Origin: Prochlorococcus marinus str. MIT 0919
GTDB lineage: Bacteria; Cyanobacteriota; Cyanobacteriia; PCC-6307; Cyanobiaceae
DNA: 64,000 bases
Direction of reading: 5' to 3'
Assembly: GCF_027359375.1 (NCBI RefSeq)
Contig: NZ_CP114779.1
Coordinates: 806,001 to 870,000, forward strand
Made by a program: the position numbers and the translations under genes. The notes under the pieces were generated by a model. The model searched no databases, was not told the origin of the DNA, and worked only from the letters and a program-made list of their open reading frames with translations. Below are positions 23,286 to 60,907 of the stretch, one piece after another. Position 1 is the first letter of the stretch, and each line of letters opens with the position of its first letter.

Positions 23286-23405
23286 ATGTCAAGCGAAAAA
23301 GACCAGTCTTCTCAAAATAAAGAAGAGAGCAATGAGAAACCTAGGGATTCTCTACTGAGCTATGAATGCGAAGAAGATGATGATGGCAATGACTGGGAAA
23401 CTTAA
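23286..23405 (+). CDS. Small acidic protein
   Basis: 39 residues, very polar, with the ending SLLSYECEEDDDGNDWET. A broken relative lies at 45171-45243 (SLLNYECEDDDGSD). Function unknown. Confidence 0.6.
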   Translation: MSSEKDQSSQNKEESNEKPRDSLLSYECEEDDDGNDWET

Positions 23406-30372: not shown

Positions 30373-30537
30373 TTACACTTCATAGACCTTACAAGTAGAT
30401 TTACTAGGATGAAGTTCGCATTCCTTTTCCCAGGAAAAATCTTGCTTTACTTCAGTCAAGTTACGAGAGGGATTGTTAATATAATCGATATCTCTAAGTG
30501 GATCTTTAACGATAGTGAATGGAGTCCTTAGCTTCAT
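30373..30537 (-). CDS. Small protein with CP12-like cysteine motif
   Basis: 54 residues from ATG 30537. It ends ECELHPSKSTCKVYEV, which resembles the C-terminal CP12 motif (Cys, about 8 residues, Cys-x-Val-Tyr). In CP12 this cysteine pair forms a redox-sensitive loop that binds GAPDH. The rest of CP12, including its N-terminal pair, is absent. Function is inference only. Confidence 0.55.
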   Translation of the reverse strand: MKLRTPFTIVKDPLRDIDYINNPSRNLTEVKQDFSWEKECELHPSKSTCKVYEV

Positions 30538-30746
30538 AATTACCCCTATTCGATTACTTGAATTTTAGCATATCTTTTCATATTAAAATTACAGTTATTA
30601 CTAAAGTATTTAAACTTAGTGATTCTTACTAACCAAAGTTTTACTAACCGAAATGGGTGATATGTACCAAATACATTCCTTTGGTTTACATCATTAGTTA
30701 TTTCTAAAACCAAGAACAAAGTAATCTTTCTACTGCAAGAAATATC

Positions 30747-31091
30747 ATGCATAAAACCTTTTTTAAAGATGTCTTTCCCGACTCATTCTTTTGTCCAATG
30801 ATAACTATTTATGTTGTCTTTGATAGTCAAATAGAGGAGCTCAAGCGTAAACAGCATCAAGACGAGTTCGCCAATCTTGACATTTCCCGCAACAGACTTA
30901 AGGAGAGCTATCAGTCACGTATCAAAGTCATCGATGAACGTGAGCATGAGCTTCAAGAAAAGCTAAAGGGGCCCGCACCAGCAGCAGAAAAAACCAACTT
31001 GCTTGTGAAAAATCTGAAAAAGGCTTGCCTAATGCTTAGCCTTTTCCAATGGCCAAGCGATAAGGGTCATCAACGAACTACGAGGGGGTAA
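30747..31091 (+). CDS. Possible coiled-coil protein or remnant
   Basis: 114 residues. Residues 30-75 (IEELKRKQHQDEFANLDISR ... DEREHELQEKLKG) are a strong helix pattern; both ends look unlike coding sequence. It could be a piece of an eroded gene. No relatives recognised. Confidence 0.35.
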   Translation: MHKTFFKDVFPDSFFCPMITIYVVFDSQIEELKRKQHQDEFANLDISRNRLKESYQSRIKVIDEREHELQEKLKGPAPAAEKTNLLVKNLKKACLMLSLFQWPSDKGHQRTTRG

Positions 31092-31153: not shown

Positions 31154-31333
31154 TTAAAACGACATTAACTGAGCATTATGCAAACGCCTAGCTTTCCTTT
31201 TCCTTGCAGCACTGTTGGCATTTAATATCGACTGATCGTGGTACTTACTTCCATTAGCAGTCGAAATCAACTGTGCTCTATGCAAACGTTGAGCTCTTTT
31301 CAGGTGAGAGCGGATTAAGGGAAGAGAGTTCAT
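31154..31333 (-). CDS. Possible small basic protein with internal repeat
   Basis: 59 residues from ATG 31333 within a longer frame. Two similar pieces are seen: RAQRLHRAQLIS and KARRLHNAQLMS. High Arg/Ser/Ala. No further evidence. Confidence 0.4.
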   Translation of the reverse strand: MNSLPLIRSHLKRAQRLHRAQLISTANGSKYHDQSILNANSAARKRKARRLHNAQLMSF

Positions 31334-31597
31334 TACATTGCTCCAAAATGGCAACCCCGTTCCCTGTTGCCAATACATGCATCCCAACAGAGGGGGGAGG
31401 GACGAACGTTCTAAAAGTGTAGCAACAGATACCAAAAATAAGCCTTAGGGGGAAATGCTTAATTCAAAATGCCTTAAGTATTCATTTGTTGTTTTGATCC
31501 CGGTAAGCAGCTTTAAGAACCACCTATCAAGACTCGCTGCTGATTAGATAAAAGCTTGCTGAGATAGCAATACTTTCTCAATGGACCTGGCCACAGA

Positions 31598-59598: not shown

Positions 59599-60907
59599 AT
59601 TTCAAAGCTGTTTGAATCATTTGCCTTAGAGGTGGTATATCACCCTCTTGTTCTGATGAGACCAAGTGATTCCTTAATTGTTCAATCATCCTATCGAGTC
59701 CCTCAGGATCTTTTTTAATCTGATGAAACTCAGGACGTCTAACAAGTGCAATGGCCGCTTCTTGTGCGATTGATTCAGACAAGAACTTTTCTTCCAAAAG
59801 TTTACTTACCCATCCCTGCTTGTGGTTACAGCGTGCAGCAATATCTCTTTGCCCTAAGCCTTGACCATAGAGCTCCCATGCAAGTTTTCGGCTAGGATCT
59901 TTCTCCCATTTAGAGCAATCTGCTTCTATTGCTTCTTTGGCTAGAGGTAGGCCAAATTGTTCTAGTGATTCTTCTATTTGCTTTAGGAGATCCTCGCTGG
60001 GTAAATAATCATTAGAAGGCTGAGCTTCATAAATTAGTTCTTCATTTAATTGAGTCCGATTGGTCCTTATATCTACACCGCCCAAATATCGACGAATAGC
60101 AGTCGCCATAGCAATTAACTGTTCTACATTATTTTGCGTAGGCTCCAGAGATGCGAGGAAATCTTTATCAGGTTCCCATCCAGATTGCCTACCAGTGACT
60201 TTTCGGTAGTTTGCTTTTGCCTGCTTGTAATTCATCAGATAAGACTGATGAAGTTTTTCTACATCATTAATTGAAAGGTTTGTGGAACCAGAACAATACA
60301 ATTGCCACGATTCTTTTATTCTCCTAGATGAACTGTCTGCGAGCAATGCCCAATCACTAATTAAAAGGCAACCTTTGTGTCGTAAATAAGATTTCAGCTC
60401 TGAATTACTATTAACTTTTCTTTTGGTCCATGAAGAGAGATTTGATAGGCCAGGCTTAAAGTGAAAAATTATATCTGCTCCATAAGGTTTAATTTGTTTA
60501 AAAGATAAAGAAGATATTGTTGACCAGTTAAATCGTTGTCTTTGATATTGAATACTTCCTTTCTCATCATTTTGAGGGACCCTTAGGAACAGATCACCAA
60601 CATCATCTAAAACACAAATAAGCATATCGTTTATCTCTAAGTCATAGAAGGCTCTCTTTTCCGAAAACATCAAGACTACTTTTTCAGCAATTGTATGACT
60701 GACTCTGCATCTAAGAGCAAGCAAAGGTTCTGTTTGTTCCACTTGGGACTGACTTAATTCTAAAAGAGCCTTATCTAATGAACAAGATTCTTCTTTTATT
60801 GGAAAATTATTTTTTGTTAGGAATTCTTTAACTGAATCTAGAAACTTCAATGAGAACCCTTCTTTTGAAGGATCCAGTAAGCATAAATTGTTGTATGGAC
60901 TGTCCAA
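59591..60907 (-). CDS. Sigma/HTH-like regulator next to DUF1822
   Basis: 438 residues. Near 345-375 LYGQGLGQRDIAARCNHKQG ... WVSKLLEEKF is a sigma-region-4-like helix-turn-helix; the large N-terminal part has no recognised domain (LALRCRVSHTIAEKVVLMFS, FLRVPQNDEKGS). Typical cyanobacterial counterparts are group-4-type sigma factors. Promoter targets cannot be told. Confidence 0.65.
   Translation of the reverse strand: MDSPYNNLCLLDPSKEGFSLKFLDSVKEFLTKNNFPIKEESCSLDKALLELSQSQVEQTEPLLALRCRVSHTIAEKVVLMFSEKRAFYDLEINDMLICVLDDVGDLFLRVPQNDEKGSIQYQRQRFNWSTISSLSFKQIKPYGADIIFHFKPGLSNLSSWTKRKVNSNSELKSYLRHKGCLLISDWALLADSSSRRIKESWQLYCSGSTNLSINDVEKLHQSYLMNYKQAKANYRKVTGRQSGWEPDKDFLASLEPTQNNVEQLIAMATAIRRYLGGVDIRTNRTQLNEELIYEAQPSNDYLPSEDLLKQIEESLEQFGLPLAKEAIEADCSKWEKDPSRKLAWELYGQGLGQRDIAARCNHKQGWVSKLLEEKFLSESIAQEAAIALVRRPEFHQIKKDPEGLDRMIEQLRNHLVSSEQEGDIPPLRQMIQTALKYA

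Follow-up and report, generated by a model that had tools for sequence, protein, structure and literature searches.

A conserved Prochlorococcus microprotein with a CP12-like C-terminal tail

The microprotein gene and its surroundings

The stretch of DNA analyzed here, referred to as the window, comprises 64,000 nucleotides (bases 806001-870000) of the single-contig, 1,716,770-base genome of Prochlorococcus marinus str. MIT 0919. Its minus strand carries a gene for a 54-amino-acid microprotein with the translation MKLRTPFTIVKDPLRDIDYINNPSRNLTEVKQDFSWEKECELHPSKSTCKVYEV, and the features of this gene are collected in Table 1. The C-terminal end of the protein reads C-x3-P-x4-C-x-V-Y-E-V-stop. 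A preliminary description had quoted the motif CELHPSKSTCKVYEV from this end, and the quotation is exact.

Table 1. Positions within the window of the microprotein gene and of the sequence elements associated with it.
Feature	Position	Strand	Basis
54-aa microprotein gene	30373..30537	minus	ATG to TAA, 54 codons + TAA; purifying selection; relatives
Putative CP12-like C-terminal tail, W36 to V54, WEKECELHPSKSTCKVYEV	30376..30432	minus	alignment and profile comparisons
Tail cysteines C40 and C49; penultimate acid E53	30418-30420 (C40); 30391-30393 (C49)	minus	
N-terminal module, residues 1-33 (MKLRTPFT..PLRDID..)	30439..30537	minus	conserved in family, no detected CP12 similarity
AGGGG, ribosome-binding-site-like	30543..30547	minus	precedes microprotein ATG
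TATGCTAAAAT, possible extended -10-like element	30562..30572	minus	by eye
Upstream element TACTTTAGTAATAACT	30593..30608	minus	71 nt before ATG

A scan of the 1,716,770 bases of the genome with a DNA pattern for C-x3-P-x4-C-x-[VLIM]-[YF]-x-x-TRR gave three matches, two of which have a true stop (the microprotein gene and the genome's true CP12) while the third ends in TGG; the backwards control of this pattern gave 0 matches in the genome. Among the 926 stop-to-stop frames of at least 30 amino acids in the window, the terminal motif is present only in that of the microprotein. Shuffling the protein's own last 30 residues 400,000 times never produced it, and 400,000 shuffles that drew on the C-terminal ends of the 926 frames together produced it once.

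The open reading frame is a real gene under purifying selection. In a set of 62 distinct 54-amino-acid coding sequences of the family, whose selection criteria included Cys at position 40, all 703 pairs with dS between 0.1 and 1.0 had a dN/dS ratio below 1, and the median was 0.21. A spurious or decaying frame might be suspected from its shortness, from its absence from Pfam and NCBIfam and from residues 21-27, where the window copy diverges from its relatives. Conservation is the strong argument against this explanation, since the low dN/dS is accompanied by conservation of the start codon, the ribosome-binding site and the upstream element, and we regard it as highly improbable.

Most relatives, among the matches listed, have GGAGG at the ribosome-binding-site position. 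The letters TATGCTAAAAT resemble an extended -10 element by eye, and several relatives appear to have similar letters in a similar place. The upstream element TACTTTAGTAATAACT differs by one mismatch from TACTTNNGTAANANCC, for which 24 occurrences were found in 61 same-family genomes (99 searched), against 17 for a backwards control that was counted without placing the occurrences. By coordinate comparison, 13 of the 24 lie upstream of a microprotein relative, starting 70-73 nt from its ATG, and the one exact TACTTNNGTAANANCC of the window's own genome lies before the paralog at 23387.

The genome has three glutamine-II riboswitches, one of which (RF01704; 37.8 bits, E 7e-7) is located at 31348-31411 on the same strand as the microprotein gene and 0.81 kb upstream of it. 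It is followed directly by a short open reading frame at 31154-31333 (minus strand), MNSLPLIRSHLKRAQRLHRAQL..KARRLHNAQLMSF, in which RLHxAQL occurs repeatedly; similar frames follow the riboswitch in loci L178, L181 and L188. The riboswitch was found in 7 of 20 loci scanned, 17 of which had been picked around family genes (L178, L181, L187, L188, L189, L090 and L096, with L189 and L090 being the same place); its distance to the family gene varies and the copy in L187 lies on the opposite strand. We do not claim control of the microprotein by this riboswitch, because another short frame stands directly behind it and the microprotein gene is preceded by a conserved element of its own. A divergent frame of 114 amino acids, perhaps a coiled coil as judged by eye, lies at 30747-31091 on the plus strand; tblastn matches to it were obtained in 44 of 95 loci examined, and it stands beside the microprotein gene in several.

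Relatives in hosts and phages

The preliminary description had treated the gene as a lone copy and had proposed a search for relatives. That search places the microprotein in a multi-copy family of hosts and phages, with matches of a 26-relative profile in 212 of 400 same-family genomes (E 0.1; 1 to 7 matches per genome) and further relatives in cyanophages. BLAST with the microprotein itself gave matches in 44 of 99 genomes at E 1, many of the weakest of which are due to chance. Of 162 loci found in a named collection, 80 were kept, 77 of them titled Prochlorococcus and 3 Synechococcaceae. The genome of the window encodes one true CP12 of 72 amino acids (C1:1417308-1417511) and two more tail proteins, of 55 amino acids at C1:23387-23554 and of 62 amino acids at C1:74853-75041.

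An alignment of 26 rows (A1), which combines the window protein with 23 matches from BLAST and 2 from phage contigs, has M1, L3, D16, W36, C40, P44, C49 and Y52 invariant in all 26. A1 omits 7 of the 33 loci with sequence there, namely the near copies L008, L009 and L018, L033, which is identical to another row, and L029, L030 and L031, which have other fronts; both cysteines are present in 33 of 33 when these are included. A profile of the N-terminal columns alone (A4) was used to avoid selection on the tail. At E 0.01 it matched 28 places in 60 genomes; in 26 of them, among these all 24 with E below 1e-15, the sequence continues into a tail that has the two cysteines. The test is independent only in part, because A4 derives from the N-terminal ends of tail proteins and its own source sequences make up several of the 28 matches. 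The other two are a match interrupted by a stop (G002:C1:568678) and a weak match to a different protein without the tail (G019:C1:59116). The preliminary description had named conservation of the cysteines among relatives as the point on which its reading could fall, and on this point it holds.

A wider set of proteins was collected with a DNA pattern of the tail (aromatic-W-x3-C-x3-P-x4-C-x2-aromatic) built from the family's own conserved columns, for which a backwards control gave one match. The pattern occurs in 128 of 300 family genomes, up to six times per genome, a count that includes chance-looking matches in G007, G101, G128, G163, G260, G132:C6 (with an in-frame stop) and G146:C5 (locus L199). 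In loci L191-L265, 66 distinct proteins end no more than two residues after the aromatic, 65 of them exactly two residues after it and one at the aromatic itself; one internal match is probably due to chance.

Pooling of the loci gave 191 distinct tail proteins of 36-82 amino acids, 2 of which are true CP12s. By their front ends they form 15 clusters, one consisting of those CP12s and seven of single sequences, a number that is rough because single linkage was applied to short sequences. In the largest cluster (152), the MKLxTPF type is grouped together with a longer one. This longer subtype, of about 70-80 amino acids, has a second cysteine pair, C-x10-C, ahead of the tail and was seen in L029 (1363-1575), L031, L110, L179, L188 and L195. 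Other fronts include MLKxLFxGMLxxSSxYYGDSIGLAPIAL, MKLFNQFNILPRYL, MNLKxxxFAIQDK and MALNDTFTIQ, to which larger genomes within the family add MVTICSGFFDLCIPL and MARFxLxxITDHLPRIG. The residue after the aromatic is D or E in 118 of the 191 proteins, Cys in 46, nothing in 23 and another residue in 4, so that a terminal acid is not universal. In hosts and phages alike, the same tail is found on about a dozen distinct short front ends. Assignment to what we take to be the class of prochlorosin-like peptides was considered and not adopted.

Phage copies were found in 13 IMG/VR loci by protein search, and a stricter form of the tail DNA pattern matched 48 IMG/VR stretches. In the phage relatives among the rows listed, the DNA before the ATG reads by eye as the end of an Hsp20 protein (V-P-E-H-H-A-R-K-D-W-L-stop and similar), and the copy in phage P-TIM68, AIR93482.1, lies behind a putative heat-shock gene. 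P-TIM68 has a canonical CP12 (59914-60129) alongside this relative, and the possibility that the phage microprotein replaces a phage CP12 was rejected for this phage, where both are present. In P-SSM2 (L266), an unannotated frame behind hsp20 at 2498-2599 has the N-terminal module and no tail in that frame.

Comparison of the tail with CP12

In the microprotein, C40 and C49 form a C-x8-C pair, with the spacing found in 16 aligned true CP12s. The tail of the genome's true CP12, ELFCDANPDEPECLVYDD, and that of the microprotein, SWEKECELHPSKSTCKVYEV, share this pair, the Pro, V-Y, the acid and the position of the chain end, while no similarity was detected in the N-terminal half. Alignment of A1 with the 16 true CP12s by hhalign placed residues 29-54 on the end of CP12 (P 4.4e-4). 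A profile of 24 diverse tail proteins (A3) gave P 5.8e-5; these proteins were chosen partly by the tail pattern, and the better scores of A3 are therefore biased. The N-terminal control A4 aligned with the true CP12s in one column only. The match to CP12 spans only the last 22-26 residues of the microprotein, which it covers end to end.

When A1, which was not selected on the tail, was compared with 177,635 PDB sequences (E up to 10), nine matches were obtained and the top three were CP12s (3zdf 0.14, 6gfo 0.14 and 3b1j 0.43). The others were a capsid protein (0.73), two glycosylases (1.9) and three GAPDH chains with a CP12-type end (1.4, 1.5 and 1.9). A3 gave five matches, with 3b1j (0.0035), 6gfo (0.018) and 3zdf (0.033) first, followed by an acetyl-CoA synthetase (0.48) and the CBS-CP12 protein 5nmu (0.58). 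The E-values of A1 are not significant alone, unrelated chains are among the matches of both profiles and the CP12s, as one family, are not mutually independent matches; these modest values are therefore support and not proof. Matches of the N-terminal profile to encapsulin and phage capsid proteins (E 0.22-0.76) were judged to be chance.

Searches with the single microprotein sequence gave no match in Pfam or NCBIfam even at E 10, and two weak matches in PHROGs (E 0.1 and 0.15). The CP12 family PF02672 was reached by 3 of 26 relatives, with a best E of 0.0026; one relative scored 18.9 bits against a cut-off of 22.7. The AlphaFold model is of low confidence (pLDDT 54.9) and Foldseek gave no match with it, so we make no structural argument. 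The microprotein lacks the AWD_VEE motif, to which the CP12 of this genome does not conform either. An N-terminal cysteine pair is likewise absent from both, the microprotein having only two cysteines.

A hairpin closed by a disulfide might have arisen independently of CP12, and would then dock elsewhere or merely stabilize the end of a small protein. The similarity of the single sequence to CP12 is indeed weak, and the family has a pattern of its own: Glu mostly precedes the first Cys where CP12 has an aromatic, Trp stands four before it, a position mostly taken by Leu or Phe in CP12, and HPT is found where CP12 mostly has NPD or NPE. The 23 of 191 tail proteins that stop at the aromatic would also fit such an origin. 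Against this stand the end-to-end alignment of the tail with CP12 in the profile comparison, the first rank of CP12 in the PDB search with A1, whose rows were chosen without regard to the tail, and the C-terminal position of the motif in 66 of 67 distinct matches, as insertion into GAPDH needs; we therefore consider an independent origin unlikely. The sequence statistics from profile alignments and PDB searches instead support the motif as CP12-like. The microprotein is a conserved protein with a CP12-type tail and not a CP12, because the CP12 core and the PRK-binding half are missing. Of the preliminary description, the observation stands, as does the CP12-like tail in its interpretation, and the lone copy does not.

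Possible docking to GAPDH and comparison with known systems

The genome encodes a single GAPDH-I, for which 3b1j chain A scored best among PDB sequences; the 3b1j entry includes a CP12 chain as well. This GAPDH-I keeps the stretch DRNP, the Arg of which we take to be the Arg contacted by the terminal acid of CP12 and GapB. The C-x8-C spacing of C40 and C49 equals that of the C-terminal pairs Cys64-Cys73 and Cys66-Cys75 described for plant and algal CP12 (PMC10253348). In the same source the tail of Arabidopsis CP12 consists of a short helix, a loop and the disulfide Cys64-Cys73, with the C-tail reaching into the active site. In oxidized CP12 and GapB tails the terminal acid is described as set at an Arg of the NADP site, with the penultimate Glu79 of Chlamydomonas CP12 contacting Arg82 of GAPDH and the last residue of GapB, Glu362, placed with Arg77 (PMC4436894). 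E53 of the microprotein is penultimate as is Glu79, an acid that is not universal in the set of 191. The same cysteine spacing, the penultimate Glu and a GAPDH-I closest to one solved with CP12 make docking to GAPDH in the oxidized state the most likely function.

Our best reading, to which we assign a probability of roughly 0.55, is thus a redox-responsive, GAPDH-docking microprotein with a CP12-type tail on a short non-CP12 front. In an oxidizing cell interior, as in darkness or stress, C40 and C49 would form a disulfide, upon which Y52, E53 and V54 would insert into the NADP site of photosynthetic GAPDH and make the enzyme less active, as CP12 and plant GapB tails do. Reduction by thioredoxin would then release the tail. 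Since the PRK-binding half is missing, the microprotein would act on GAPDH alone, bridge GAPDH to a partner of its N-terminal module or compete with true CP12. A second partner of this module is a natural guess because the N-terminal part of CP12 binds PRK (PMC10253348). The disulfide, the docking to GAPDH, the sign of its effect and any such partner are predictions from the protein sequence.

A sub-case of this reading, with docking in common and a different effect, is an adaptor that would compete with true CP12 for GAPDH, or modulate it there, and would not be inhibitory itself, for example by keeping GAPDH from the PRK complex or by recruiting it to another enzyme via the N-terminal module. 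It is favored by the lack of a counterpart of the PRK-binding part, by the same tail on roughly a dozen fronts and by the presence of both canonical CP12 and a microprotein in P-TIM68, which makes simple redundancy unlikely; all the same we hold a non-inhibitory role to be doubtful. A broader proposal is possible, and we put it forward tentatively: the detachable CP12-type tail may be a common redox-gated GAPDH plug of picocyanobacteria and their phages, mounted on a dozen or so microprotein fronts. GAPDH, and hence the balance of the Calvin cycle against the pentose phosphate pathway, would then be targeted by numerous small adaptors in addition to CP12, with the phages carrying a plug of their own next to hsp20.

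Prochlorococcus and marine Synechococcus are credited with at least 25% of marine primary production (PMC11257934), and Calvin-cycle switching by these cyanobacteria and their phages has so far been discussed around CP12 (PMC2663038, PMC5082946). If the microproteins dock to GAPDH, they would add a further layer of small redox regulators that are nameless in the family libraries searched. The family of tail proteins is larger than is visible from the window sequence alone. Our literature search, which covered titles and the starts of abstracts, returned no CP12-like tails on other Prochlorococcus microproteins; the survey of Stanley et al. 2013, with eight CP12 classes according to PMC3906501, could list a relative.

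Several known systems resemble the microprotein in part. PHROG 2603 and PHROG 627 match the tail of some relatives with their C-terminal positions (E 0.0058-0.1), and PHROG 627 also aligns with the entire true CP12 of the genome at 2.7e-25. Both are longer, with 75-76 positions, and are labeled as of unknown function in PHROGs; PHROG 2603 is matched by the microprotein itself only at E 0.1. In CBS-CP12 proteins a CBS domain stands ahead of a CP12-like part (PMC3906501), and these proteins (5nmu, E 0.58) are similar in joining a CP12 part to another module, whereas in the microproteins the tail alone is found on short fronts. CP12 itself (PF02672), as encoded by this genome and by phages, has in common with the microprotein its small size, the C-x8-C pair, a Pro four after the first Cys and an aromatic three after the second, followed in the microprotein by an acid and the chain end. 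The comparison with the strain's true CP12 that the preliminary description had suggested bears out this likeness. In contrast to CP12, the microprotein lacks the AWD_VEE core and a detected counterpart of the PRK-binding part, has a different, conserved N-terminal module and a Trp four before the first Cys, and falls below the Pfam cut-off. The C-terminal extension of GapB in plant GAPDH is also a CP12-type tail that stands apart from the remainder of CP12, with CKDNPADEECKLYE in chain 2pkr_O against CKLHPTKSTCKLYE in microprotein relatives. In GapB this tail is fused to GAPDH, whereas here the GAPDH of the genome has no tail at its end and the tail belongs to a stand-alone open reading frame.
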